A stretch of 64,000 bases of DNA, taken from contig NZ_CP102509.1 in assembly GCF_024611995.1 (NCBI RefSeq), positions 7,626,001-7,690,000 on the forward strand, read 5' to 3'. Positions 2,569-51,556 of the stretch are shown one piece after another (position 1 is the stretch's first letter; every line of letters starts with the position of its first letter). The notes beneath the pieces are model-generated. The model ran no database searches. It had not been told where the DNA came from and saw only the letters and a list, made by a program, of their open reading frames with translations. A program made the translations under genes and the position numbers. The DNA is from Streptomyces sp. NBC_00162. GTDB taxonomy: Bacteria > Actinomycetota > Actinomycetes > Streptomycetales > Streptomycetaceae.

Positions 2569-5321
2569 CGCTGGTCTCCCGCTCTCAGCTCGGTGGAGAT
2601 CTGTCGTCTGCCGGATATCGCCGCCTCCGCGAGCACGGCCACGGCGACCAGGGCCGCCAGGCCCAGCGCCTGGGTCAGCACGGGCCGCGCGGTGAGCCGC
2701 AGCCCCGCCGGGACCTGCGCACCGACCAGCGCGGAAAGGTCCACGGCCGGGCCGAGCAGGGCCACGGCCGCCGCCGCGACCAGCCCGCCGCCGACCGCGG
2801 CGACCAGCGCCTGCGGCAAGGCCTCGGCCAGGATCAGCGCCACGCCCTGCCGGGGACGCAGGCCCATGGTGCGCAGCCGTGCGAGCAGCGCGGCCCGGTC
2901 GGGCGCGGCCCGCATCAGCGTCAGCAGGACGGCCAGCACGGCGAATCCGGCGGCCCCGGCGACCGCCGCCCAGAACAGCCGTCCGGCCGAGTGCTGGAGC
3001 GGGTCGGCGGCGAGGCCGGCGACGGTGGCGGCACTCGTCCGCACCAGGACCTGCTCCGCGGTCGCGGCCGGGGTCCCGGCGCGGACCAGCTCCTCCAGCC
3101 GGTCCGCGTCGACGGATCCGGTGGCGAACCACCGGTTGGGGGAGGAGATCCGGGGCGTCAGGGCGACGGCCGGCTGCGCCGGCAGGACGAGGATGGCGGC
3201 TCCGCTGCCCGGCAGCGCCGGCGTGCCGTCGACCACGGCAGCGGCCCTGACCTGGAGTTCCTCGCCGCGGACCCGCAGCCGGTAGGCCTGGTCGCCGGCC
3301 CGCGCGACCAGGTCGCCGCTGAACAGCGCGGGCAGCGGAGCGCCGGGGGCACCCCCGGCGAGCAGCGCCGGGTCGAAGCGGCCGCGCCCGACCGTACGGG
3401 CCAGCGCCGCGTACGCCACCGGGTCGACGACGACCACCCTGACCTGCGGAGAGCCCCGATCGGTGCCGAAGAGGAACGCGTCGTCCTCTTCCACCCAGGC
3501 GGCGACCGGCGTCCGTACCCCGGGCAGTTCGTTCGCCGCCCGGATCAGCTCCGGCGTCAGGGCTTCTCCCGCGGGCGCGGCGATCTGGGCGTCCCCGCCC
3601 ACGGCCTGCCGGGCCACCTGGAGCCGCTCGGTGTCCACCGAACCCAGCACCGTGGCACCGAAGCCGCCCGTGGTCACCGCGAGCATCAGGGCGATCAGCG
3701 GCAGTACGGAAGGCCGCCCGCGGCTCCCGCGGCCCCCGCCGCCCCGGGCGGCGCGGGCCAGCCCGAGGAAGCCGATCAGGCCCGGGCGCCGGCCGGCCGC
3801 CCGGGCCAGTGCCCCGACGAGGGCGGGCAGGAGCCGGGAGAGCAGCAGGGCGCCGGACAGCGCGAGCAGCAGCGGGGCGGCCACCAGCAGCGGATCGAGT
3901 CCGGCGGCGGGGGCGACGCCGCGGCGGCGTACCTCCAGCACGGCCGCGGCGGTGGCGGCGAGGACCAGCAGCTCGGCGACGAGGCGGCGCCGGGGGCGCG
4001 GCCCGCGCGGCGCGGACAGCAGTACGAAGGCCCGTACGGGGAAGGCCAGCAGGGCGAGCAGCGTCACGGCGGTGGCGGCGACCAGCGAGGCCGTCAGCCG
4101 GGGAGTCGGCAGCAGCCGTATGGCGAGCCAGGCGGCGAGCGCGGCGGCCGGCAGCACGGTGACGGCACCTTCGCCGAGCAGGCGGCGCACCAGGGAGTGG
4201 CGCGAGCCGCCGCGGGCCAGCAGCAGCCGCAGCTCGGCCTGGCGCCGGTCGCCGGTGAGGGCGGCGGCCAGGCAGAACACGACGGCGGCCACCCCTGCGA
4301 CACCGGCCGGGCCGATCGCGGCGAGCGGCGCTGCGCCCCGCTGCCGGGCCTCGGCCCGCTTGAACAGTTCGGGAAGGCGGGAGCTGATGTGCAGATCGGG
4401 ACGCTTGAAGGCGGCGGAGAGTCCGGAGGCGGTGGGGCCGGTGACGAAGGAGGCGATCTCCCGCGAGACGCCCGGCAGCAGGTCGGCCCGCAGGACACCG
4501 GTGTCCACGGGAAGCCGCCAGAAGTACTCGGCCCCCTCGCCCCAGGCGCCGATGCGGTCGAGGCCGTCCGCGCCGACGAGGGCGGCGGTCTGCCAGTACA
4601 CCTTCGGCAGGGAGTCGGGGGTTCGGTTCTGGCAGGCCTTGGTCAGGCACGGCAGGTCGGTCCAGTAGACATCGGCGGGATCGGTGGCGTCGTACAGCCC
4701 GACGACCTCGGCCCGGAGCGTCCCGGAGATGCTCGGCGTGGATTCCAGCACGGTGCCGAGCGGGGCCTTGAGGGTCTCGGAGGCACTGCGCGACAGGGCC
4801 ACCGGGACCGGGGCGCCGGGTTCGCCGCCGCTCGGCCAGCGGCCGGCGACCAGCGAGGTGTGGGCGGCGGCCTCCGGGAGGTGGACCAGGGTGAGCCGGG
4901 GGTCGACGGCCTCGGGCCGGTCCAGGCCGGGCGTGGCCAGGTTGCTGGCCTTCACACCGCGCGCCCCGTGGACGGGACCGCTCGCGTCGAGGCGGAAGGC
5001 GCCGCCGGTGCGTGCGCGCAGGGCGGCCAGTACGGAGTCCAGGTCCTGCGGGGTCATCCGTCCGCCACGGGAGGTGACGGAGGCGGACAGGCTCGTCGGT
5101 CCGGGGCCCTGGTCGTGCAGGAAGGAACGCAGGGCCTGGTCGGCGCCGCGGTCCACGGCGCGCGGCAGCGCGGCCGCCAGCAGTACGGCGACGAATGCCA
5201 GGGCGGCGCCGAGCAGCACGGTCAGCGGCGCCGCGCGGAGCCGGGTCCGCACCCAGGGAGCGGGGCGGTGCCCGCGCCCGTCGGCGGTGGTCGGGGCCGG
5301 GGCCGGGGCCGGGCGGGTCAC
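2565..5321 (-). CDS. FtsX-like ABC transporter permease
   Basis: A 918-residue membrane protein with an N-terminal transmembrane anchor (about residues 31-52), a large extracytoplasmic region, a central cluster of hydrophobic helices, and a C-terminal FtsX-type helix set. This is the duplicated layout of large MacB/FtsX permeases. The start is the GTG at 5319-5321, overlapping the TGA of the preceding permease as GTGA, with a GGAGGA ribosome site just upstream. It is followed directly by its ATPase. Low-complexity Pro/Ala at the N terminus is cytoplasmic. Confidence 0.85.
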
Positions 5322-38790: not shown

Positions 38791-39603
38791 CTAGGGGGTG
38801 TCTGACCCTCCGCCGGTGGCCCGGCGCAGGGTCAGCGCCGCCAGGGCCTCGGGGGCGCCCGACTGGCCGCGGACGCCGGGGAAGGCGTTCACGTCCACGA
38901 TCAGCGGTGTGCCGCCGCCGGCGTCGATGATGTCCACGCCGTAGACGTCCAGCGCGAAGGCCGCGCCGGCCGCCCGCACCAGATCGGCCCAGCCGGCGGG
39001 CAGTTCGGCCAGGGCCAGCGGCAGGTTGGGCCCGCGCCCGCCCGGCGAGAGCTCGGAGCGGCGCAGGGCCGCGAAGACCTGGTCCCCGATCGCCCACAGC
39101 TTGTGGTCCCAGCCGCTGTTGGGCGCGAAGTCCTGCACCACCACCGGTTCGCCCGGCCACCGCGCCGCCAACTCCCGCAGCCCCGCGGCGTCGTCCACCC
39201 GGGCCACCAGGTCGCCCCGGCGGCTGTAACGGCTCTTGACCACCACCGGCGAGGCCAACGGGACGGCGGACCGCGCCCACACGGAGAGGGAGCCGACACA
39301 GCGGGTCGCGGCGAACGGCAGCCCGGCCCGCTGGGCGAGCTCCGCCATCGCCGTACGGTCCTGGCACAGCGTGGTCGCCGCCGCCGTGTTGACGACGGAC
39401 GCGCCCCGCCCCTCCAGCCGCCGTGCGAGATCCAGCGCGTGCGCGGTACGCGACTTCAGCAGGTACACGTCGGCCGGCCGATCGGGGACGCCTTCCGCCG
39501 TGCTCGGGTCCAGCACCTCGACGACGTGCCCGGGTGCCAGCAGGGCGGCGGTGGCCGCCAGCAGCGGATGACCGGGTTCCGGAGTGATCAGACCGATCCT
39601 CAC
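38791..39603 (-). CDS. RimK-like ATP-grasp ligase 2
   Basis: A 270-residue ATP-grasp protein. The preATP-grasp start RIGLITPEPGHPLLAATAALL, ATP-binding lysine in VVVKSRYS and magnesium ligands in DIIDAGGGTPLIVDVNAFPG are present. GTG 39603 overlaps the stop of the first ATP-grasp gene (GTGA). Only part of the 300-residue RimK form is kept, but all catalytic segments are there. Substrate unknown; RimK-type enzymes join an amino acid or amine to a carboxylate. Confidence 0.83.
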   Translation of the reverse strand: MRIGLITPEPGHPLLAATAALLAPGHVVEVLDPSTAEGVPDRPADVYLLKSRTAHALDLARRLEGRGASVVNTAAATTLCQDRTAMAELAQRAGLPFAATRCVGSLSVWARSAVPLASPVVVKSRYSRRGDLVARVDDAAGLRELAARWPGEPVVVQDFAPNSGWDHKLWAIGDQVFAALRRSELSPGGRGPNLPLALAELPAGWADLVRAAGAAFALDVYGVDIIDAGGGTPLIVDVNAFPGVRGQSGAPEALAALTLRRATGGGSDTP

Positions 39604-40505
39604 GCGCCGTCCACCGCCCCCGCCGACATCTGCGCCGGAATCGACAGGGGCAGGGCGTACGAGCGTGGCGACGGCACCGGCGGGGGCGTGGAACCGCCCG
39701 TCCGCGCCAGGTCCAGCACCGCCCGGGCCACCCGCGCGGCCGCGTCCGGCACCTGACGGAAACTGGGGAAGTCGTTCACGTCGACGACCACGGGCCCGTC
39801 GGGCCCCAGCAGCACGTCCACCCCGTACAGGTCGAGCCCGTACACCGCCCCCACCTGCGCGGCGATCGCCGCGACCTCGGCCGACAGCGGAACACGGCGC
39901 TCCCGCACCGCCGGGTCGGGGTGCAGCGGGGAGCACCGCTCGGTCGCGAACAGCTCCCCGCCGACCCCGTACACCTTGATGTCGGTGCCCGAGTTGGGCA
40001 CGTACGGCTGGGCGATGAGCAGGCCCTCGCCCGCCAGGACCGGGAGCATCGCCTCCAGCCGCTCCGGCGAGGACACCAGGTGCACGGCCCGTCCGGAGCT
40101 CCCGTCGGCCGGCTTGACGACGAGGGGGTACTCGGCCGCCGGTATCTCCCGCAGCAGCTCGGGGCTGGCCGCCGCGTAGGTCGGCGGCAGCGGAAGGCCC
40201 CGGGCGCGGCCGATGGCGGCGGCCAGCGCCTTGTCCCGTACGCCGCGGATCGAGCGGGCGTCGTTGACCGTGGTCAGCCCGGCGGCGGCCGCGGCCTCCA
40301 GCAGGGTCAGCCCGGGGCCGCCGGAGACCGTCTTGAGCACCCAGGCGTCATGGGAACCCGCGCTCACCGTCTCGGTCATGCACAGCAGCGAGCCGCCCGG
40401 CCGCACCACGTCGACCCGGTGCCCCCACGCGGTCAACTGGCGGATCACCTCGTTCGGCATGCCGTCGTGGCGGTAGTGCTCCTCCACCAGGAAGCAGAGC
40501 CTCAT
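39600..40505 (-). CDS. RimK-like ATP-grasp ligase 1
   Basis: A 301-residue ATP-grasp protein beginning MRLCFLVEEHYRHDG. The ATP-binding core has VVKPADGSSGRAVHLV with a Gly-rich loop, AQPYVPNSGTDIKVYGVGGELFA, and the metal site DVLLGPDGPVVVDVNDFPSF. It is a distant paralogue of its neighbour. ATG 40505 is preferred (GGGGAAGG site). First gene of a coupled pair, then a DMT-type permease. A palindrome at 40554-40565 lies in its promoter region. Confidence 0.85.
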   Translation of the reverse strand: MRLCFLVEEHYRHDGMPNEVIRQLTAWGHRVDVVRPGGSLLCMTETVSAGSHDAWVLKTVSGGPGLTLLEAAAAAGLTTVNDARSIRGVRDKALAAAIGRARGLPLPPTYAAASPELLREIPAAEYPLVVKPADGSSGRAVHLVSSPERLEAMLPVLAGEGLLIAQPYVPNSGTDIKVYGVGGELFATERCSPLHPDPAVRERRVPLSAEVAAIAAQVGAVYGLDLYGVDVLLGPDGPVVVDVNDFPSFRQVPDAAARVARAVLDLARTGGSTPPPVPSPRSYALPLSIPAQMSAGAVDGA

Positions 40506-40553
40506 GGACCTTCCCCATATTCCCCGGACGTCCGCCGATCCCGTCCGGCGAGT

Positions 40554-40565
40554 TGTGACGTCACA
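40554..40565. promoter_or_regulatory. TGTGACGTCACA palindrome
   Basis: A perfect 12-bp palindrome 48 bases upstream of the ATP-grasp start and 112 before the DUF7873 start. Probably a repressor or CRP-like regulator site; the protein is unknown. Confidence 0.5.
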
Positions 40566-40677
40566 GGATGTCATGAACCGCAATGTGATGATCGGTCCAC
40601 CTCGGCAGGTCCGGTGGGTCGGGAGGGCGCCGGATATTCGAATGTACGGGCGCCCCGGCTCCTGTTAGGTTCATCGC

Positions 40678-41409
40678 GTGCCGAAGCTGAATCAGATCAT
40701 CGCAGTCGAAAAGGGCGTCAAGTCCAAGTCCCTCCAGGAGCTTTCGCAGGCTCACCACGACGTCCAGAAGCCCGCCCTGCTGGCCGGCATCTCCCGGACC
40801 TACCAGCCCAAGGACGAGGAGGGCGAGCAGCTGCCGCCCGAGTCCACGCGGGTACAGGTCAAGGCCGAGGACGTGCTGCGCGCGACGGCCGGAACGCTGA
40901 CGCGGCTGTTCGACGTGACGGCGACCAAGGACTGGGCGAACCGCACCGCGGCCGCCGACGTCGTCGTGGACGGCACGGTCCTGCTGGCCCAGGTGCCCGT
41001 GCCCTATCTGCTCTTCCTGGAGAAGCAGCTCACGGACATGCACACCTTCGTACGGAAGCTGCCGGTGCTGGACGCGTCCGAGTCCTGGAACCTGGACCCG
41101 TCCACGGACTCCTGGAAGACGGACCCGGTGCGCACGATCCGCACCAAGAAGGTGCCGCGCAACCACGTCAAGGCCGAGGCCACCGAGAAGCACCCGGCGC
41201 AGGTCGAGGTCTACTACGAGGACGTCCCGGTCGGTTACTGGACGACGGTGAAGTTCTCGGGCGCACTGCCGGCCCGGCGGGTGAACGAACTGCTCGACCG
41301 CGTGGAGAAGCTCCAGCAGGCCGTCAAGTTCGCCCGGGAAGAGGCCAACAGCGCCGAGATCACCGACCAGCGGGTCGGGGACGCGGTGTTCGGCTACCTG
41401 TTCGGGTAG
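40678..41409 (+). CDS. DUF7873-family conserved protein
   Basis: A 243-residue soluble protein common in actinobacteria and without known function. It has a charged N terminus (PKLNQIIAVEKGVKSKSLQELSQAHHD) and ends VGDAVFGYLFG. GTG 40678 follows a TTAGGTT stretch by only six bases, so a leaderless transcript is possible. It directly precedes the unusual tRNA-like cluster; whether that matters is unknown. Confidence 0.82.
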   Translation: MPKLNQIIAVEKGVKSKSLQELSQAHHDVQKPALLAGISRTYQPKDEEGEQLPPESTRVQVKAEDVLRATAGTLTRLFDVTATKDWANRTAAADVVVDGTVLLAQVPVPYLLFLEKQLTDMHTFVRKLPVLDASESWNLDPSTDSWKTDPVRTIRTKKVPRNHVKAEATEKHPAQVEVYYEDVPVGYWTTVKFSGALPARRVNELLDRVEKLQQAVKFAREEANSAEITDQRVGDAVFGYLFG

Positions 41410-41420
41410 CCCCACGATCT

Positions 41421-41442
41421 CCCCCTGTATGTCTGCAGGGGG
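41421..41442 (+). terminator. Hairpin after the DUF7873 gene
   Basis: CCCCCTG (41421-41427) pairs perfectly with CAGGGGG (41436-41442) over an 8-base loop, starting 11 bases past the stop codon. No T-run. Confidence 0.6.
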
Positions 41443-41456
41443 TGCGCGAGAGCGCA
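41443..41456 (+). other. GNRA-capped hairpin preceding the tRNA-like elements
   Basis: TGCGC-GAGA-GCGCA: a 5-bp stem closed by GAGA, a GNRA tetraloop, directly before the first tRNA-like element. Likely part of a structured RNA. Confidence 0.5.
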
Positions 41457-41472
41457 AGCTGAAACTGATGTT

Positions 41473-41575
41473 GAAGCTGAACAGGGGTGTCAGTTGGGGG
41501 TTCGAATCCCTCCCCCGGCATTACGCGCCGGGGTGGCCCAAGCCTGGCAGAGGCGGCCCCGTAAATCTCAGATTC
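41473..41575 (+). tRNA. Permuted tRNA-like element 1 (3' half before 5' half)
   Basis: The 3' half comes first: anticodon-stem strand GGGGT (41484-41488), variable region, T arm GGGGG-TTCGAAT-CCCTC (41496-41512), acceptor strand CCCCGGC (41513-41519) and discriminator A. After six bases the 5' half starts: acceptor GCCGGGG (41527-41533), D arm with GCCC...AGGC and a GG-containing loop, then GCCCC (41556-41560). In this order the acceptor closes with seven Watson-Crick pairs and the anticodon stem with four plus one G-U. A further helix joins 41473-41480 to 41568-41575 (seven pairs, one mismatch), leaving GTAAATC opposite ACA at the anticodon loop. No 5' half fits upstream and no 3' half downstream. 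Identity is unclear. It may be a permuted gene, a novel RNA or a relic. Confidence 0.5.
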
Positions 41576-41627
41576 TCGCTCCAGTCTCAGTATTCGCCGC
41601 CGAACACCGGATCGACCGAGCGTGGAC

Positions 41628-41718
41628 GATCATCGACGGATGGGGGTTCAAGTCCCTCCTGCGCCTCTCCTCGTGGCGCGGTAGTTCAATGGCAGAACAC
41701 GTCGGTCTCAATATGATC
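41628..41718 (+). tRNA. Permuted tRNA-like element 2 (Gly-like body)
   Basis: The 3' half comes first: anticodon-stem strand CGACG (41634-41638), a 3-base variable region, T arm GGGGG-TTCAAGT-CCCTC (41642-41658), acceptor strand CTGCGCC (41659-41665) and discriminator T. Eight bases later the 5' half starts: acceptor GGCGCGG (41675-41681), TA, a canonical D arm GTTC-AATGGCA-GAAC (41684-41698), A26, and CGTCG (41700-41704). The acceptor pairs 7/7 (one G-U), the anticodon stem 5/5. GATCAT (41628-41633) pairs perfectly with ATGATC (41713-41718), extending the stem and leaving GTCTCAAT bulged; GTCTCAA would be a normal loop with U33, anticodon CUC and A37. D arm and U73 look like glycine tRNA, while CUC would read Glu codons. 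Confidence 0.55.
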
Positions 41719-41764
41719 CGCGGCTCTTAAACGCCGCCGGTGTGCGCAATTGGGTGGCAAGCAG

Positions 41765-41795
41765 GAGCCCGGGAGCTGGACATGCTCCCGGGCTC
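41765..41795 (+). terminator. Strong hairpin closing the tRNA-like cluster
   Basis: A 12-bp perfect stem, GAGCCCGGGAGC (41765-41776) with GCTCCCGGGCTC (41784-41795), 7-base loop. It ends the transcript carrying the two tRNA-like elements or separates it from the IS remnant. Confidence 0.75.
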
Positions 41796-41865
41796 TGTCA
41801 CGTCCCCGCCCGCCCCGATGGCCGGGGCGACCGGCGGCCGGGGCTCTTGGGTTTTGTTTTTCGGA

Positions 41866-43626: not shown

Positions 43627-45831
43627 ATGGGCTGGTTCCGCCGGCCGGCAGCCCCGGTCTTCCATGCCGCGCTATTGCGCGAGAGCGACGCCAAGGCGGC
43701 GGGTGCCGCCGTACTCCTCTCGCCGAACCGCCTTCTGACCTGTGCCCACGTTGTCAACGACGCGTTGGGGCGGAAGCTGCTGAGCACGGAGCGGCCTGCG
43801 GGCGAACAGCCCCTGAGCATCGCATTCCGCGGGTCGGGGGCGGCCACACGTCGCGGCACCGCTCGTCTGTCGGTGTGGCTGCCGCCCCGGCCACGGCCGC
43901 ACAGCATCGCGTGGGACGGCGACCTGGCTGTATTGGACCTGGAGGAGTCCGCTCCCGACTGGGCCACCCCCGTGGTCTGGCGCGAGATGTCCGAGGGGCT
44001 GAAGCTCCGGGCCTGGCACGGCGGCGGCGTCGCCATCACCTATGCCGACACCGTGGCTGGCCATCAGGACGAAGGGTGCTGGTACCTCGACGGAACCCTC
44101 ACTGGTGCCGCCATCGGGCCCGGATACAGCGGTGGCCCCCTGTGGGTCAGGTCCGACGTTACCGTCGCTGGGCTTGTCATTGCCCAGGTAATGCCGGACA
44201 CGGGCCCGTTGCGACCGCAGGACACCGTTCGGCGGGGCTGGGCCGTGCCCTGGCAGACGGTCCGGGAGCAACTGACCTGCGCGGGGGCCAACGACGTCGT
44301 CGCCGAGTGCCGGGTCGCCGAGCCGAGTGGGCCCACCTGTACCGGGCCCGGCGAGGCACCCGGACAAGCGATGGTGCCGATGCTGCGGGCCCTGCTGGAC
44401 GACCCGGCACGGCGCGCCGACCATTGCCGGGATCTCGCGGTCGGCATCGGCTGGGAACCGCCGCCCGATGGCGAACAGTCTGCGCCCACCCTGGACGAGC
44501 TCGCGGCGCTGTTGCTGACCGAGGCGCGTGCGCTGGCCACGCTGACGGAGTCACTGGCCCCCGCGGTCGGGAACCACGTCGGCGATCGCCGGACGCTGAA
44601 CGGCCTGCTGGCATTCGGCCGCATGGTGGCCGACGTCCGGCTGCTGTCCGTCGCCGAGCACCGGCAGCTGCTCACGGCACTGCTCGCGGTCGTCACGGCG
44701 GAACCGGACCTGATCTCCCGCGCCGCACGGGAAGCACTGCGCTTCATGGAGCTTCCGGAGGTGCTGGCACACACTTCCCGACTGACGGAGGCGGATGTCG
44801 ACTACGTCGTGCTGACGTTGGAGGACTACCCTGACGGGCGCGGTGGCGCGGCGGATTCCCTGCCTGTCCCGGCACTGCTCAGACTCGCGGAGTTCGTGGC
44901 GGCCGCGGTGGCCGACCCGGGCTGCCGCGCGGTCCTGCGCGCGTGGTGCGACCGTGTCGCCGGACGCCTGGGGATCAGCCCCTCGGCGCTCAGGGAACGG
45001 CGGGCGGACGCGGAAGCGTGGGCGTCCCACCGCCCGTCACCCGTCACCCGGATCGTCGTCCGCTTGACTCGGGCGGGAGCTGACAGCCCGGAACACTTCT
45101 TGTGCGAGATCTGGCTCAGCCGCCGCGACGGGACGCAGACGTCCGTGACCATCCCGCAAGGCTCCCTGCCACCGGACGAGATCGGACGGCTGATCCGTCG
45201 GGCAGCGGACGGAAGCCAGGTGGGAAGTGGCCATCCGCCGACTCAGGTGGACGTGGTCGTCGGAGCCGACGGACTGGAGATCCCTGTTGACAGCTGGCAG
45301 ACGGGGAGCGAGCTCGGAGATGTCTTCCCCGACCTCGGCGACCTCAGCGTCGCGCTCGGCAGCCGGTACCAGGTGGCCCTTCGCTGCCCCGAGCTGACCG
45401 GCCGCGTCCCCACGGCCGCGAGCGACATGCGCAGACGATGGGCGGCCGGCGACACCGGCACGCTCGTCGTCGACGAGCCGTCCGTTGACATAAGGCGCCT
45501 GCACGACCTTCTGAAGGCGTCGCACCACGACACCACACGCGTCGTGCTCCATGGCTCACCGGAGCAGCGGTCTCGGCTTCTCCCCATATGCCTGGCCATG
45601 GGCGTTCCCGTCGTGCTGTGGGACCGGGCCGCCGAGTCACACGAGGACGCGGCCCGACTGAACGACTTCGAGCCCACTGGATCGCTGCACAAACTTCCGC
45701 AACGGCTCCAGGACTTCAGGTCGGTCCTCTACGGATCCGAGGCACCCTCCTCGGCCGCGAGACCGGCGCTCGTGTGGGAAGACGGCGACCTGGCGCTGCC
45801 GGGGCCACTGCAATTGGCGGACCCCTCATGA
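43627..45831 (+). CDS. Trypsin-like protease fused to VMAP-C domain
   Basis: A 734-residue cytosolic protein (no signal peptide). Residues 10-220 are a trypsin-like domain with His41 in LTCAHVV, Asp99 in WDGDLAVL and Ser168 in GPGYSGGPL, so the triad is complete. An alpha-helical middle region (about 245-455, containing repeated Leu-rich helices) follows. From about residue 475 the sequence matches the VMAP C-terminal domain (PVTRIVVRLTRAG... EIWLSRRDG, GMPVVLWDRAAE near the end). In vWA-MoxR-VMAP ternary systems VMAP proteins recruit or carry effectors that are switched by the ATPase; here the protease would be the effector. Its target is unknown. Confidence 0.88.
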   Translation: MGWFRRPAAPVFHAALLRESDAKAAGAAVLLSPNRLLTCAHVVNDALGRKLLSTERPAGEQPLSIAFRGSGAATRRGTARLSVWLPPRPRPHSIAWDGDLAVLDLEESAPDWATPVVWREMSEGLKLRAWHGGGVAITYADTVAGHQDEGCWYLDGTLTGAAIGPGYSGGPLWVRSDVTVAGLVIAQVMPDTGPLRPQDTVRRGWAVPWQTVREQLTCAGANDVVAECRVAEPSGPTCTGPGEAPGQAMVPMLRALLDDPARRADHCRDLAVGIGWEPPPDGEQSAPTLDELAALLLTEARALATLTESLAPAVGNHVGDRRTLNGLLAFGRMVADVRLLSVAEHRQLLTALLAVVTAEPDLISRAAREALRFMELPEVLAHTSRLTEADVDYVVLTLEDYPDGRGGAADSLPVPALLRLAEFVAAAVADPGCRAVLRAWCDRVAGRLGISPSALRERRADAEAWASHRPSPVTRIVVRLTRAGADSPEHFLCEIWLSRRDGTQTSVTIPQGSLPPDEIGRLIRRAADGSQVGSGHPPTQVDVVVGADGLEIPVDSWQTGSELGDVFPDLGDLSVALGSRYQVALRCPELTGRVPTAASDMRRRWAAGDTGTLVVDEPSVDIRRLHDLLKASHHDTTRVVLHGSPEQRSRLLPICLAMGVPVVLWDRAAESHEDAARLNDFEPTGSLHKLPQRLQDFRSVLYGSEAPSSAARPALVWEDGDLALPGPLQLADPS

Positions 45832-45892
45832 CGATGCGGTCAGGGCGCCGTACGACGGACCCATGGACTTACGAACAAGGAGCGGACACCCG

Positions 45893-46912
45893 ATGACGGC
45901 CCAGAAACTTCAGGGGCAGCACGACACGGCGGATGACGGGCGGGGCGCCGAATGGCGGCTGTTCAAGGGTGACGGCCGGGCAAGGAGCATCTCGTTCCCC
46001 GAGGCCCCGCCGTGGCGACGGTTCGGCGGGGCGGAAGCGGACGACTCCCACCGCGAGCGGCCGTACCTGATCGGCGACCAGGAGGCGGATGTCGTCAACG
46101 CCGCACTGCTCCTGCGCCGCCCGCTGCTGGTGACAGGTCATCCGGGAACAGGTAAGTCGTCGCTCGCGTACGCTGTGGCCCATGAGTTGTCCTTGGGTCG
46201 TGTCCTGCACTGGCCGGTGAACAGCCGCACCACCCTCCAGGACGCGCTGTACCGCTACGACGCGATCGGCAGGCTCCGCGAGACGAACATGAGACGCGAA
46301 CCCCATGCGGGGGACGACTCCGCGGCGGAGGATCCCGGCATCGGCTCGTACGTACGTCTTGGCCCGCTCGGCACGGCACTGGTGGCGTCGACGACCCCCC
46401 GCGTGCTCCTCGTGGACGAGCTGGACAAGGGAGACGTCGACCTGCCGAACGATCTGCTCAACGTCTTCGAGGAAGGCGAGTTCGAGATCCCGGAACTGGC
46501 GAGGCTCCCGGAAGAGCACTCCTCGGTACGCGTGCTGACCGCCGACTCCGACGCATGGACGGACGTCGTCCGCGGCCACGTGCGCTGCTCCGAATTCCCC
46601 GTCGTCGTCATCACCAGCAACGGCGAGCGCGACTTCCCGCCGGCCTTCCTGCGCCGCTGCGTACGGCTGGACCTCCCGGAACCGGACGAGGACCGCCTGC
46701 GTGCCATCATCTCCGCTCACCTGAATTCCGGCGGCGAGCCCGACACGGACGGCATCGACGACCTGATGCGCGCCTTCCTCGCCCGCAGAGCTCGGGGGGA
46801 ACTAGCGACGGACCAATTGCTCAACGCGGTGTTCCTGCGCCGCGGTGGCGTCCAGCTTGACGCGGACGGCCTGCTGGACGCCGTGCTGCACCGGCTCGCC
46901 AGAACGCTGTGA
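45893..46912 (+). CDS. MoxR-type AAA+ ATPase
   Basis: A 339-residue AAA+ protein with Walker A GHPGTGKS (residues 82-89), Walker B VLLVDELDK (171-179), sensor 1 VVITSNGERDFP and an Arg finger in PAFLRRCVRLDLP. The start is ATG 45893, which has AAGGAGCG upstream; ATG 45863 would add ten residues including a TTA codon. It overlaps the following vWA-like gene by GTGA. In the ternary systems MoxR ATPases remodel the vWA partner. Confidence 0.9.
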   Translation: MTAQKLQGQHDTADDGRGAEWRLFKGDGRARSISFPEAPPWRRFGGAEADDSHRERPYLIGDQEADVVNAALLLRRPLLVTGHPGTGKSSLAYAVAHELSLGRVLHWPVNSRTTLQDALYRYDAIGRLRETNMRREPHAGDDSAAEDPGIGSYVRLGPLGTALVASTTPRVLLVDELDKGDVDLPNDLLNVFEEGEFEIPELARLPEEHSSVRVLTADSDAWTDVVRGHVRCSEFPVVVITSNGERDFPPAFLRRCVRLDLPEPDEDRLRAIISAHLNSGGEPDTDGIDDLMRAFLARRARGELATDQLLNAVFLRRGGVQLDADGLLDAVLHRLARTL

Positions 46913-49900
46913 CCGAATCCATGCTGCACAGAGTTCGTGGTGTCCTGTCCGGCGACGACGAGCTTCTCGACGCCGAGGAGCTCCTCGACGCGCTGTGGCT
47001 GGCTGCCCGGCTGCCCCCGGCAGCGGCCACAGCCCTGGCGCGGGCGGCGACCGCCGCCGAGTCACGCGCCGCGGCGGCCGATCGCACGGCTGGTGCCGCC
47101 ACTGCCGGGCTCGCCTCCGAGCCGTCCGACGAAGACCACAATGACGACCAACAGGGGAAGGCTTCCCCGAGCGCGGATACAGGGGCCGGATCCGATGCCG
47201 CACTGAGGAACGGCCTGCACGCCGCTCCCGCCTCCGCCTCCGGGGAGAGGCAGGCCGCACACTCCGACCGGGCCGCCATGGCCGTACGCACTCCCGGGGT
47301 GAAGGCACTGGAGGGCGCGGAGCTCCGACTCGGGCGAGCCCTTCGCCCACTGAAACAGCTACGAACCGACGCGCTGCGCACGGAACTCGACGTCAATGCG
47401 ACGGTCTCGGCCATAGCCGAGACCGGCCTGCCGGAAGCCGTGCTACGCCCCGCGAGAACCAGATGGCTCGATCTGGCGCTTCTCGTCGACGACGGCGTCT
47501 CCATGCTCCTGTGGCAGCAGCTCGCGGGGGAGATCCGAGGGCTGATGGAGCGCTGCGGAGCCTTCCGGCACGTGCGCGTCCACGGCCTCGACAGCCGCGA
47601 TCCCGATGGCCCCCGACTGAGTAAACGCCCGTACGGAGACACCGGCGCGACGCTGCCGCTGTCAACCGTGCACGATCCCTCGGGCAACACCCTGCTCCTC
47701 GTCGTGAGCGACGGCGTCGGCCGGGCATGGCGGGACGGGTCGATGCACCAGGCCCTCCTGCGTGCCGCGTCGGTTGGGCCGACGGCTGTGGTGCACGCGC
47801 TCCCGCGGCGCCTCTGGGCAGGCTCGGGAATCGACGCGGAGCCGTGGAAGGTGACGACCCGCCGGAGATGTGCGGCGAATCGGTCCTGGCACATCGAGGA
47901 CCCCGTGCTGCCGCCCGAACTCGCCCCATACGACGGGGTGCCGGTCCCGGTGTTGGCCACGGACGGGAGCAGCCTCAGCACCTGGGCCCGACTGATCGGC
48001 TCCCCCGAGGACACCGCGGTGCTTCCCCTGCTGACCCTCTCCGGCTCCCCAGCTCCGACCACCGGCGATCGGGTCTTCGGCCGGCAGGACACGGTGGGCG
48101 ACGCGGAGGAGGCCGTGCTGCGGTTCAGGGCCGCCGCCTCCTCGGACGCTTACCGCCTCGCGGCGCATCTGGCCGCTGTGGCCCCGCTGCCTGTCCCGGC
48201 GATGCGGCTCCTCCAGCACGCGGTCACTCCGGCAGTCGACACGTCCCACCTGGCGGAGGTCTTTCTCGGTGGGCTGATGCACGGCGTCGACGGGCCCGAG
48301 AACGTCCCGCACCAGAAGGCCTTCGACTTCACGGAGGAGACCCGGAGGGTCCTGCTGGGCACGGTGCCGCCGGCTGAACTGGTTCGCACCGCGCACGCGG
48401 TCACGACTCAACTGGCCGAACTCGCGCGTTCCTCGGCCGGATTTCCGGCCTGGCTTCCCCATCCCGAGGGTCCCGACCGGGTGCGATCCGGTGGGCCGTT
48501 CGGCTGGGTGGACGACACCCTCAGGCGCAGGCTCGGGGTCTCGCTGCCCGACACCTCAGGACCGGAGCCGGAGCCGCTGCCGTCCCGCGGCGAGCTGCGA
48601 GAGCTTCCGGAGGGCTTCGCACTCGACCCCGAGCTGACGGGATGGCGCCGACTGTCGGTGGCCGACCCTCGGTTCGAAAGCCGGGACGACCTGCCATACG
48701 ACGTGTTCGCCGAGCACGAGGGAGGTTGGTCGGATGTCGGGATGTTCCTGGCGCACGACGGAGAGGGCCGCGTCCTCGTCGTCCGCATTCCCGCTGTACG
48801 GCACGCCCTCGAGCTCGTTGCGACCGAAGTCGCTGCGCTGAAGCGGATGGACGGCGTCTACGCGCCTCGACTGATGGCCTGGGACACCAGCCATGACCGA
48901 CCATGGCTCGCGGTCGACTGCGCGCTGGACGGCACGCGGGAACCGGCACCGAACCTACGGGCCTTCACGCAGCAGCAGGGAATCCTACACCATGCGGCTC
49001 TGGTCACGGTGGCTCGGCAGCTCGCGAGCGGCCTGTCCAGGGCCCACCACAGAGGGCTCGTCCACGGCTCTCTCACTGCCAACTGCGTGCTGATTGCGGG
49101 GCGCGACGTACAGATCGCAAGTTGGGCGACGGCATCGCTCAACGGCAGGACCAGTCGGTACAGGTCACGCTATGAGCCCAACCGCCGGTATCGGGCCCCG
49201 GAACTGGAGGACGCTGCGACTGACCCGACCGAGAAGGCCGATGTCTACGCACTCGGCATCATCCTCTTGGAGGCGACGACAGGCCGGAAGGAAATTGTGG
49301 ACCTCCTCGAAGGCCTGAGGTCATCGAAGGCGACGCTCTCGCCCGCGTTGGTTGCCATTCTTCGAGCCTGTACGCACACCGATCCTGACCGCAGACCTTC
49401 AGCGGCCAAGTTGCTCCGATCCTTCGACGCCCTTGCCGATGGCCCGTACCCCGAGAGTCACCCCCTGACGGTGACCCTCGGGTTGAACACAGACCTGGAC
49501 AAGGTGGAATTGGCCCTGGAGAGTGAACACCGCGGCGGCCAAGGCCCCCACCTCCTGTGCCTGGGGCGTCCGGCTCGTGTACGCCGGGAGTTCATCGGTC
49601 GCGTCCTGGAGCAGCTGACGCGGCAGGCCCGGACGGGCATGGAGCTCATCGTTGCCGACTACGACGGCCGCAGCGAGCTCGCCCGCTTCGAGGGTGCCGT
49701 GAGCGGTTCGTCCTACCTCAACCTGCGCGACGACACGACGCACGCTCTCTCGCTGTGCGAGAAGCTCAGGTCCGAGATCAGCCGTCGCCGGCACGTGCTG
49801 GAGACGATCACGGCTCACAACGACATTGGGAAGCTCGAGAACGCGGCATTCGAGAATGCTCTCCTGCCCCGGCTACCGCGCCTCGTCGTGGCCGTGGAGA

Positions 49901-50169
49901 ACTTCCCACGGATTTTCCGGTCGGCGCCGGAAGTGCTCACCGTGATGCAACAGGTCGCGCGGGCCGGCCCGCAGCTCGGCATCCACTTGATCCTGTTCGC
50001 GGACGACTTGGAGCAGCTCCGGGCCGCTCACGGTTTCCTGGCCATGATGCCGACACGGATCGATCTGCAGCCCACCCCTCCGTCGGAAGGCAACTCGACC
50101 GAACCGCTGACGGAGGGCGCGGCGCTCTTCGTCCAGTCCGATTCTCGGCAGCTCTTCTTCATCACATGA
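46909..50169 (+). CDS. SAV_2336-type vWA-like / pseudokinase / degenerate FtsK-like protein
   Basis: A 1086-residue cytosolic protein. Residues 1-120 are Ala/acidic and disordered. The SAV_2336 region (about 130-560) holds a vWA-like fold: LDLALLVDDGVSM (about 187-199) with an incomplete MIDAS and a later LLLVVSDGVG. Residues about 580-850 are a protein-kinase fold whose catalytic loop is HGSLTANC (no HRD Asp) and whose DFG is SWA, while YRAPELE and DVYALGIILLE stay, so it is a pseudokinase. Residues about 860-1086 look like an FtsK/EccC-type ATPase (LLCLGRPARVRREFIGRVLEQL, LIVADYDGRSELARFEGA, GIHLILFADD) whose P-loop Gly-Lys-Ser is lost. It is coupled to MoxR and likely the scaffold or sensor of the system. 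Confidence 0.85.
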   Translation: MTESMLHRVRGVLSGDDELLDAEELLDALWLAARLPPAAATALARAATAAESRAAAADRTAGAATAGLASEPSDEDHNDDQQGKASPSADTGAGSDAALRNGLHAAPASASGERQAAHSDRAAMAVRTPGVKALEGAELRLGRALRPLKQLRTDALRTELDVNATVSAIAETGLPEAVLRPARTRWLDLALLVDDGVSMLLWQQLAGEIRGLMERCGAFRHVRVHGLDSRDPDGPRLSKRPYGDTGATLPLSTVHDPSGNTLLLVVSDGVGRAWRDGSMHQALLRAASVGPTAVVHALPRRLWAGSGIDAEPWKVTTRRRCAANRSWHIEDPVLPPELAPYDGVPVPVLATDGSSLSTWARLIGSPEDTAVLPLLTLSGSPAPTTGDRVFGRQDTVGDAEEAVLRFRAAASSDAYRLAAHLAAVAPLPVPAMRLLQHAVTPAVDTSHLAEVFLGGLMHGVDGPENVPHQKAFDFTEETRRVLLGTVPPAELVRTAHAVTTQLAELARSSAGFPAWLPHPEGPDRVRSGGPFGWVDDTLRRRLGVSLPDTSGPEPEPLPSRGELRELPEGFALDPELTGWRRLSVADPRFESRDDLPYDVFAEHEGGWSDVGMFLAHDGEGRVLVVRIPAVRHALELVATEVAALKRMDGVYAPRLMAWDTSHDRPWLAVDCALDGTREPAPNLRAFTQQQGILHHAALVTVARQLASGLSRAHHRGLVHGSLTANCVLIAGRDVQIASWATASLNGRTSRYRSRYEPNRRYRAPELEDAATDPTEKADVYALGIILLEATTGRKEIVDLLEGLRSSKATLSPALVAILRACTHTDPDRRPSAAKLLRSFDALADGPYPESHPLTVTLGLNTDLDKVELALESEHRGGQGPHLLCLGRPARVRREFIGRVLEQLTRQARTGMELIVADYDGRSELARFEGAVSGSSYLNLRDDTTHALSLCEKLRSEISRRRHVLETITAHNDIGKLENAAFENALLPRLPRLVVAVENFPRIFRSAPEVLTVMQQVARAGPQLGIHLILFADDLEQLRAAHGFLAMMPTRIDLQPTPPSEGNSTEPLTEGAALFVQSDSRQLFFIT

Positions 50170-50338
50170 AACTGAGTTGGACTACGTACAGCCCTCGCCG
50201 CTCCTCGGGACTCCTCGGGCGCCAATGAGCTCTTGCTGACGCCATAGGATCCAATAGGTTCTTGACCTACATGAAGACGGATGTCTCGGCTTTCGTTTTG
50301 GTACTCAGATATAAACCAACTGCAGTACGGTGATCGGC
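50170..50338. other. Junction between conflict system and TnpB element
   Basis: No gene. A TTGAC (50262-50266) could be the target-adjacent motif left of the IS200/IS605-type element; no convincing left-end hairpin was found. Confidence 0.35.
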
Positions 50339-51556
50339 ATGCAGTTGAGGTACAGCTTTCGCCTGTACCCGAACGGGGCTCAGCGCACAGCGCTGGCAAA
50401 GGCGTTCGGGTGTGCGCGCGTGGTTTACAACGACGCCATTCGGGCTCGTGAGGCTGCCCGCACCGCAGGCGAGCCGTTCCCGAAGATCGGGGACCTGTCC
50501 AAGCTGCTGATCACCGAGGCGAAGAAAACCGAGGAACGCGCCTGGCTCGCCGCTGTGTCAACTGTGGTACTCCAGCATTCCCTTCGGGACCTGGATGCCG
50601 CCTATCGGAACTTCTTCGACGGCTTGAAGGGCAAGCGTCCACGCATAGGTGCACCCCGCTTCAAGGGCCGTAAGGACAACCGGCAGGCCGTACGGTTCAC
50701 CGCCAACGCCCGCTGGAGGGTCACAACCGGGGGGAACCTGTCGTTGCCGAAGATCGGCGACGTGCGCGTGACGTGGTCGCGCAAGCTGCCGTCCGTACCG
50801 TCCACGGTGACCGTGGTAAAGGACGCGGCAGGCAGGTACTTCGCGAGCTTTATCGTGGAGACCGAGCCCGAGGCGTTGCCCGAGGCCGCGTCCCACGTCG
50901 GTATCGACCTGGGCCTGTCGCACTTCGCGATCCTCTCGGACGGTACGAAGATCGAATCCCCGCGCTTCCTACGCCGCGCGGAGAAGAAGCTGAAGCGGGA
51001 ACAGCGACGTCTGTCCCGTAAGTCGAAAGGCAGCAACAACCGAGGAAAGGCCCGGCTGAAGGTCGCCCGCGCTCACGCGCAGGTGGCCGACGCACGGCGC
51101 GAGTTTCACCACCAGCTCTCAACGAAAATCATCCGCGATAACCAAACGGTTGCCGTTGAGGGCCTGGCGGTGAAGGGACTCGCCCGTACGCGCCTGGCCA
51201 AGTCCATCCACGATGCCGGATGGTCCGCATTCGTGTCGATGCTGGAGTACAAGGCCGCCCGGTACGGGCGCACCTTCGTGCGCATCGGCCGGTTCGAGCC
51301 GACCTCGCAGGTCTGCTCGCAGTGCGGTGTCAAGGACGGCCCCAAGCCCCTCCACGTGCGCGTGTGGGAATGCCGGGCATGCGGGGCCGTCCTCGATCGG
51401 GACGTCAACGCTGCGGTCAACGTAGCCAAGGCCGCCGGACTGGCGGTGTCAGCCTGTGGAGCGCAGGTAAGACCGGGACTCGTCCCGGCACAGCGCCGTG
51501 AAGCAGGAACCCACCGAGACGGTCGGACGACTGTGGTAGGACTCCCCGGGCGTTAG
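50339..51556 (+). CDS. tnpB: TnpB (OrfB) RNA-guided nuclease
   Basis: A 405-residue TnpB with an N-terminal helix-turn-helix/wedge part (MQLRYSFRLYPNGAQR) and a complete split RuvC centre: Asp in GIDLGL (about 190), Glu in VAVEGL (about 273) and Asp in DRDVNAAVN (about 354). The zinc finger CSQCG...CRACG lies between the last two. This is the ancestor group of Cas12 nucleases, using an omega RNA read from the element's 3' end. ATG 50339 is chosen; GTG 50330 is possible. It is likely active by sequence, and its slightly lower GC fits a recent arrival. Confidence 0.93.
   Translation: MQLRYSFRLYPNGAQRTALAKAFGCARVVYNDAIRAREAARTAGEPFPKIGDLSKLLITEAKKTEERAWLAAVSTVVLQHSLRDLDAAYRNFFDGLKGKRPRIGAPRFKGRKDNRQAVRFTANARWRVTTGGNLSLPKIGDVRVTWSRKLPSVPSTVTVVKDAAGRYFASFIVETEPEALPEAASHVGIDLGLSHFAILSDGTKIESPRFLRRAEKKLKREQRRLSRKSKGSNNRGKARLKVARAHAQVADARREFHHQLSTKIIRDNQTVAVEGLAVKGLARTRLAKSIHDAGWSAFVSMLEYKAARYGRTFVRIGRFEPTSQVCSQCGVKDGPKPLHVRVWECRACGAVLDRDVNAAVNVAKAAGLAVSACGAQVRPGLVPAQRREAGTHRDGRTTVVGLPGR

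Follow-up and report, generated by a model that had tools for sequence, protein, structure and literature searches.

The window analysed here is a 64,000-nucleotide (nt) stretch of Streptomyces sp. NBC_00162 (contig NZ_CP102509.1, positions 7,626,001 to 7,690,000 of the forward strand), and coordinates below are positions within it unless a locus is named. It carries a gene for a protein of the DUF7873 family and, directly 3′ of that gene, two tandem RNA elements (together 41458-41743, +), here called element 1 (E1) and element 2 (E2), in which the parts of a tRNA stand in permuted order. We propose that the gene and both elements belong to a single unit. The predicted protein matches Pfam PF25283 (DUF7873) with 402.9 bits (E 7.2e-121); DUF7873 was the sole family in a Pfam scan at E values up to 0.001, with the TROVE (Ro60) domain not reported, and the AlphaFold2 model has a mean predicted local distance difference test score of 93.8. 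It is the sole DUF7873 found in the source genome, and its closest named relatives, among the best 80 kept, are from Streptomyces and up to 99% identical. The parts of the unit are as follows.

40678-41409, +: DUF7873 gene, the protein-coding half of the proposed unit (GTG start, 243 amino acids)
41458-41591, +: E1, a permuted tRNA-like RNA on an outer rod (scanner and parse)
41458-41480 pairing with 41568-41591, +: E1 outer helix
41484-41488, +: E1 anticodon-stem 3′ strand GGGGT (parse)
41496-41512, +: E1 T arm, loop TTCGAAT
41513-41533, +: E1 acceptor hairpin, 7/7 pairs, with 7-nt strands and a 7-nt loop (3′ strand CCCCGGC, 41513-41519; loop, 41520-41526; 5′ strand GCCGGGG, 41527-41533)
41536-41554, +: E1 D arm (parse)
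41556-41560, +: E1 anticodon-stem 5′ strand GCCCC, 5/5 pairs including one G-U
41561-41591, +: E1 3′ rod strand, including TCTCAGATTCTCGCTCCAGTCTCAG, which is conserved in part (alignment A4, 35 loci)
41604-41743, +: E2, a permuted tRNA-like RNA on a two-part outer rod (RNAalifold and pair counts, 31 loci)
41611-41615, +: E2 internal-loop motif, 5′ side, AUCGA (in alignment A3, two positions invariant and three nearly so)
41634-41638, +: E2 anticodon-stem 3′ strand CGACG (parse)
41642-41658, +: E2 T arm, loop TTCAAGT
41659-41681, +: E2 acceptor hairpin, 7/7 pairs including one G-U, with 7-nt strands and a 9-nt loop (3′ strand CTGCGCC, 41659-41665; 5′ strand GGCGCGG, 41675-41681)
41684-41698, +: E2 D arm, which we take to resemble that of tRNA-Gly (parse)
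41700-41704, +: E2 anticodon-stem 5′ strand CGTCG, 5/5 pairs
41726-41733, +: E2 internal-loop motif, 3′ side, CUUAAACG (in alignment A3, one position invariant and several nearly so)
41764-41796, +: strong hairpin 3′ of E2, 13-bp stem, -29.8 kcal/mol

A first-pass annotation, made from the letters of this DNA alone, had placed two tandem permuted tRNA-like elements here, and both were confirmed by parsing and by a scanner that demands a T arm, a 7-pair acceptor hairpin and a D arm. Over the whole window this scanner returned exactly E1 and E2 on the + strand and nothing on the - strand, and at the strict setting it matched 5 times in 1,222,690 bases of related loci after base shuffling. The pairing it had described, 7/7 in the acceptor strands and 5/5 in the anticodon-stem strands counting G-U, holds for both elements, which carry different acceptors. 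The spacers between the acceptor strands are 7 and 9 nt long rather than the 6 and 8 it gave, and the outer helices that it recognised do exist and extend further than it described, reaching approximately 41458-41591 and 41604-41743. ARAGORN called no tRNA in the window, and Rfam returned no match there at its gathering thresholds. The stretch 41410-41800 (391 nt), which has a strong hairpin at either end, folds better than 100/100 shuffles (z -3.67), and four stretches around single elements do not stand out from shuffles (z -1.11 to -0.20). Folded alone, E1 has a minimum-energy structure that differs from the permuted tRNA-like fold; that of E2 (41620-41725) shows the expected acceptor, T and D hairpins and the rod. 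Evidence from single-sequence folding is ambiguous, and the case for structure therefore rests on relatives.

Covariation was assessed in an unbiased test in which acceptor strands were chosen by the T-arm or D-arm pattern with the partner unseen; scanner-derived pair counts were not used, because the scanner demands pairing. Identical sequences were counted once in this test and in the CCA, tRNA-position and spacing counts below, and the latter two counts include only elements with a 5/5 anticodon-type stem. For E1-type acceptors, 30/34 distinct pairs matched at 7/7 positions and 4/34 at 6/7, compared with 6.0% at 7/7 when partners were swapped across loci; the corresponding values for E2-type acceptors were 18/19, 1/19 and 11.7%. 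Anticodon-type stems, taken in the best register, reached 5/5 in 83/107 E1 and 84/107 E2 elements (29.7% and 32.5% when swapped). The alignments of E2 (A3) and E1 (A4) omit near-duplicates and any element whose acceptor or variable loop is long, and a further 4/35 and 4/39 of the sequences selected, respectively, were omitted, including the divergent loci L197 and L012. From 31 E2 sequences RNAalifold recovered the outer and inner helices together with the T, acceptor and D stems, and 27/31 pairs show compensatory changes. In pair counts over this element, 96.0% of cells are paired and 203 cells carry two-sided changes, whereas shuffles give 50.6 such cells and slid versions no more than 49. 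Its rod helices, with 6 outer and 7 inner pairs, show a two-sided change at every pair, and its acceptor has compensatory changes in 7/7 pairs with 99.5% of cells paired (31 loci). From the E1 alignment, RNAalifold recovered the T, acceptor and D stems with compensatory changes in 12/16 predicted pairs, and the E1 rod was absent from this prediction. A duplex swap test corrected for GC content backs both rods, with 0/20,000 permutations as low for each element (35 divergent loci for E1); in the uncorrected test the own rod partner was best in just 2/35 (E1) and 6/38 (E2). The comparison of covariance over relatives that the first-pass annotation had suggested as a check is clearly positive in the acceptor, T and D stems and in both E2 rod helices, and it supports the idea, also raised there, of a tRNA-derived structured RNA in permuted order.

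To follow the elements beyond the window we collected 194 chromosomal, plasmid and phage loci in which DUF7873 could be read, of which five with less than 450 nt downstream were left out; the remaining 189 include near-copies (L014 and L079, for example, are one plasmid). At least one permuted element lies within 900 nt of the DUF7873 stop in 183/189 loci, and at least two in 132/189. Elsewhere, the same relaxed scanner setting gave 61 further matches on the + strand and 55 on the - strand in 1,566,620 bases. A covariance model of E2 (R1), built from alignment A3 and matching its own members by construction, scores the window at 131.4 bits, the window sequence itself being in the training set. 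It is strong in three of the six loci that the scanner missed (L138, 112 bits; L156, 100 bits; L172, 78 bits, upstream of the gene) and weak in two (L160, 42 bits; L011, 34 bits), in a range that tandem tRNAs also reach; the sixth, L154, has neither an R1 nor a scanner match. Across 121 Streptomyces genomes, R1 matches of at least 57 bits occur in precisely the 58 DUF7873 carriers and in 0/63 others, a line drawn after seeing the results; 56 of the carriers score at least 92 bits and the remaining two 63.0 and 57.1. In each of the 58, a strong E2 match sits just downstream of DUF7873. No further conserved gene was found to accompany the unit, other listed families reaching at most 15/80 chromosomal loci (DUF7873 and overlapping open reading frames (ORFs) aside).

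Could the elements simply be the relic of an ordinary tRNA array, as the first-pass annotation had considered, or a product of chance? Tandem identical tRNAs do mimic a permuted tRNA: in locus L003 (1480-1630; G000:C1:5816364), two tandem tRNA-Asn genes, read by eye, score 50 bits with R1. Viral copies of the unit, moreover, are often found among tRNA genes. R1 matches of 55.7 bits or less are widespread, and those up to about 55 bits mean little alone, because plain tandem tRNAs such as this pair reach 50 bits. However, E1 and E2 have different acceptors, compensatory changes run throughout the elements, the shuffled bases yield the scanner almost nothing, and the genomes with strong element 2 matches and those with DUF7873 are identical sets in the Streptomyces sample. 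We consequently reject a relic of tandem tRNAs on the covariation, the differing acceptors and the co-occurrence with DUF7873, and regard relic or chance as vanishingly improbable. Tandem identical tRNAs are a false-positive mode for searches aimed at permuted tRNAs.

The two elements are also held in a near-fixed arrangement. Measured from one anticodon-type stem to the other, 79/86 distinct E1-E2 pairs are separated by 70-80 nt (median 73), yet acceptor loops vary from 4 to 76 nt. The pair could alternatively be a 3′ untranslated region (UTR) device of the DUF7873 mRNA, its folds being cut by tRNA-processing enzymes or bound by DUF7873 and so setting the stability or level of the message. 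Such a device would fit the position of the element after the gene in nearly all counted loci, the short distance to the stop (about 50 nt to the start of E1 in the window; a median of 77 nt to the E1 anticodon-type stem across loci) and the strong hairpin after E2. This hairpin lacks a T run and is absent from the output of a consensus terminator scan; it is likely the 3′ end of the transcription unit. A simple UTR switch would, however, hardly need two elements with distinct conserved rods at near-fixed spacing, and two loci are arranged differently. In Microcoleus phage My-WqHQDG (L011, 4950-6461), the only element-model matches downstream of DUF7873 are two weak ones about 2 kb away, and an Rfam HEARO match (4950-5159, 129 bits) and an annotated ORF separate them from the gene; perhaps a mobile element entered the unit. 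In L172, R1 matches lie upstream of the DUF7873 copy (2647-2921) and none was called directly downstream, perhaps reflecting a second copy of the unit upstream. On balance we consider a UTR device rather unlikely.

The features of tRNA that the elements keep and lose are informative about decoding. U8 is kept in 98/99 E1 and 95/95 E2, and A14 in 98/99 and 91/95; U54, U55, C56, A58 and the D-loop GG are present as well, most of them being demanded by the scanner. Position 33 is U in decoding tRNAs. It is not conserved here, U33 occurring in 40/99 E1 and 47/95 E2. These patterns indicate that the elbow and acceptor are under selection and that the anticodon is not.

Each element has its 3′ half upstream of its 5′ half, and its acceptor and anticodon strands match, as in a circularly permuted tRNA gene; a usable anticodon loop, judged by U33, is not conserved. 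Permuted tRNA genes have been described in six algae and one archaeon (PMC3978253), and their transcripts mature into tRNAs; the likeness lies in the leading 3′ half and the short spacer between the acceptor strands. They mature via a bulge-helix-bulge junction, whereas the DUF7873-linked elements have a long covarying rod, and red-alga permuted tRNAs have been shown to be aminoacylated, whereas the elements lack a conserved U33. If E1 and E2 were true permuted tRNA genes, their ends would be joined and the acceptor loop cut by RNase P and a 3′ nuclease to give a working tRNA. In keeping with this, every tRNA stem is present in permuted order, an RtcB ligase occurs in 7/7 DUF7873-bearing Streptomyces genomes, and a CCA end is encoded in many copies (ACCA after the acceptor 3′ strand in 47/118 distinct E1, TCCA in 17/113 distinct E2), as it is in two archaeal permuted tRNA genes (PMC3978253); E1 and E2 of the window have no encoded CCA. 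Set against it are the loss of U33, the covariation of the rods, which a throw-away leader and trailer need not show, and the finding of RtcB in just 2/25 phage, plasmid and viral records, although the host might supply the enzyme. One option considered in the first-pass annotation, a permuted tRNA that decodes and is circularised by a route of its own, appears unlikely because U33 is not conserved and no second conserved neighbour gene was found in 80 chromosomal loci, and we give true permuted tRNA genes only a very small chance.

The first-pass annotation knew of no established bacterial counterpart, which does not hold: the bacterial Y RNA, YrlA, is described as a circular permutation of tRNA (PMC11472068), and permuted tRNA mimics in bacteria are therefore already established. 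In the published model, its basal stem is bound by Ro60/Rsr and its tRNA-like domain by PNPase (PMC8394870), and for Salmonella it has been suggested that the tRNA-like domain could competitively inhibit an anticodon nuclease (PMC7790460). At a loose threshold, both elements match the full length of the Rfam YrlA model (RF02553), E2 with 26.8 bits (E 0.0051) and E1 with 23.4 bits (E 0.048), below the gathering threshold of 69 bits. Elements in other DUF7873 loci score 23.7-37.6 bits where listed, several loci having none listed. In both families a T arm, a closed acceptor hairpin and a D arm sit on a basal rod with an internal loop, so that the permuted tRNA-like module is closed by a basal stem. 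YrlA is the closest known kind of RNA to E1 and E2. A single TROVE (Ro60) match in the source genome, about 4.7 Mb from the unit, scores 51.8 bits over model positions 289-351 of 442, and beside it lies a tandem YrlA-type pair (L002, 1260-1620; G000:C1:2942366-2942679), which at 46.3 and 35.1 bits is also below threshold; this suggests that RF02553 undercalls actinobacterial Y RNAs.

The differences are equally clear. The gene adjoining E1 and E2 is DUF7873, not Ro60; the E2 rod motif (AUCGA / CUUAAACG) differs and is absent from the Ro60-locus RNA pair of the source genome; and the DUF7873-linked elements are mostly paired at near-fixed spacing, with CCA encoded in many copies. Ro60 was found in 9/35 of the DUF7873-bearing genomes and records searched (5/7 Streptomyces, 1/14 named phage or plasmid records and 3/14 viral contigs, which are possibly fragments) and none was found in 26/35, the very long record L013 not being among the 35. 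The DUF7873 unit is accordingly built like a Y RNA unit and falls outside the family by score and by partner gene, and we reject a plain assignment to YrlA on these two grounds.

It might still be argued that E1 and E2 are ordinary YrlA Y RNAs that stand beside DUF7873 by chance and serve Ro60 in trans. Their matches span the whole Rfam model, the source genome has a TROVE match with its own tandem pair, and Ro60 is present in 5/7 of the DUF7873-bearing Streptomyces genomes searched. However, all listed scores, at 23-38 bits, are below the threshold, and the score does not discriminate, since the plain tandem tRNA-Asn pair of L003 obtains 40.6 bits, tandem identical tRNAs being a false-positive mode for YrlA searches too. 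No Ro60 was found in 2/7 Streptomyces genomes, 13/14 phage or plasmid records and 11/14 viral contigs, the last possibly being fragments; the E2 rod motif is missing from the Ro60-locus RNAs, and the co-occurrence of the elements is with DUF7873. We consider it unlikely that they are ordinary Y RNAs. No paper naming DUF7873 was found in the literature searched, and nothing resembling a unit of DUF7873 and a permuted RNA turned up in searches that were not exhaustive.

DUF7873 is distributed over phages and Streptomycetaceae. It was found in 73/50,697 phage records (phages of Vibrio, Gordonia, Rhizobium, Klebsiella, Serratia, Arthrobacter, Pseudanabaena, Rhodococcus and Microcoleus) and in viral contigs (best 80 of 256 kept). 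In Streptomycetaceae, a genome scan gave at least 573 relatives among at least 592 stretches, of which the best 80 were kept, and 7 of 396 genomes sampled over the phylum carry the gene, all of them Streptomyces. A permuted element is present in 11/12 named phage loci examined, from phages of Arthrobacter, Gordonia, Rhodococcus, Rhizobium, Klebsiella, Vibrio and Pseudanabaena. In Klebsiella phage Centimanus (L198, 5013-5096), the element region is annotated as 'tRNA-Stop(tta)', and permuted elements can be misread as odd tRNAs in this way. Deinobacterium chartae, outside the Actinomycetota, is the sole DUF7873 carrier among 14 control genomes and also their sole TROVE match.

In a quick tree of 104 thinned DUF7873 proteins, 12 chromosomal rows, 2 from plasmid records and 4 from viral contigs form one clade (Shimodaira-Hasegawa-like approximate likelihood ratio support 99), and with midpoint rooting this 18-row clade, which holds the Streptomycetaceae copies, is nested in viral diversity. 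The 11.85 Mb Nonomuraea record (L013, labelled plasmid) branches outside the chromosomal clade. The protein alignment (A2) excludes locus L152, whose sequence has an internal stop, as well as L174 and L188. A phage origin of the Streptomyces copies is likely on this topology. ARAGORN, run on 60 of 91 viral loci, made at least one tRNA or transfer-messenger RNA (tmRNA) call in 33 and at least five in 17, some calls overlapping the elements. Genes for tmRNA lie close to the unit in the viral contigs L158, L164 and L177 (ARAGORN) and near it in Gordonia phage Phendrix (L007, 2072-2600; Rfam). Phage-encoded tRNAs reportedly help phages to evade defences that target tRNAs (PMC10264068, PMC11555353), and the frequent position of viral copies of the unit among tRNA genes is a point of likeness to them. 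Unlike these tRNAs, the RNAs of the unit are probably non-decoding, are coupled to a conserved protein and are also kept in Streptomycetaceae chromosomes.

Other genes surround the unit in the window. On the - strand, divergent to the DUF7873 gene, two neighbouring genes at 38791-40583 have RimK-like ATP-grasp matches. Downstream, three genes at 43627-50169 encode a trypsin-like protein with VMAP-C, an AAA ATPase and a large kinase-domain protein, by their Pfam names a vWA-MoxR-associated conflict-type system. An ORF at 50330-51556 presumably encodes a TnpB-type transposon protein.

Based on these comparisons, we propose that the unit probably specifies a Ro60-independent, Y-RNA-like ribonucleoprotein (RNP) in which DUF7873 is the protein partner. 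E1 and E2 would lie on a single transcript, giving a composite RNA of about 290 nt after the gene with two permuted tRNA-like heads, each on a double-stranded rod. Each head would retain the tRNA elbow and acceptor arm, with the rod in place of the anticodon loop, and because of this replacement the heads should not read codons. The conserved rod motifs, namely the E2 internal loop and, in E1, a partly conserved UCGCUC stretch (A4), look like candidate protein sites; DUF7873 may bind the rods via the conserved internal loops and so take the role that Ro60 has for YrlA. The heads could then tether or decoy enzymes that recognise tRNA. Since phage tRNAs reportedly help to evade defences and viral copies of the unit often lie near tRNA genes, we hypothesise that the heads act in tRNA protection or turnover: in phages, the most likely use would be shielding or handling tRNAs that are attacked by host tRNA-cutting defences or are in turnover, and the Streptomyces copies look like a phage-derived acquisition. 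A more tentative extension, which we put forward as a possibility clearly less likely than not, is that the unit represents a new Ro60-free RNP class that arose in phages against tRNA-targeting immunity or for handling tRNA ends and was adopted by Streptomycetaceae. The encoded CCA may even indicate that a cut in the acceptor loop opens the heads, which are then charged and act as two-piece tRNAs joined by their rods.

The known partner of bacterial Y RNAs is Ro60, and the DUF7873 unit offers a permuted tRNA mimic, backed by covariation, with a different protein. DUF7873, a family of unknown function, thereby gains a likely RNA partner, and tRNA-mimic RNPs are suggested to be broader than Ro60 and Y RNA. 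As a compact unit in harmless Streptomyces and actinophages, it would let the purpose of tRNA mimicry by noncoding RNA be tested directly.
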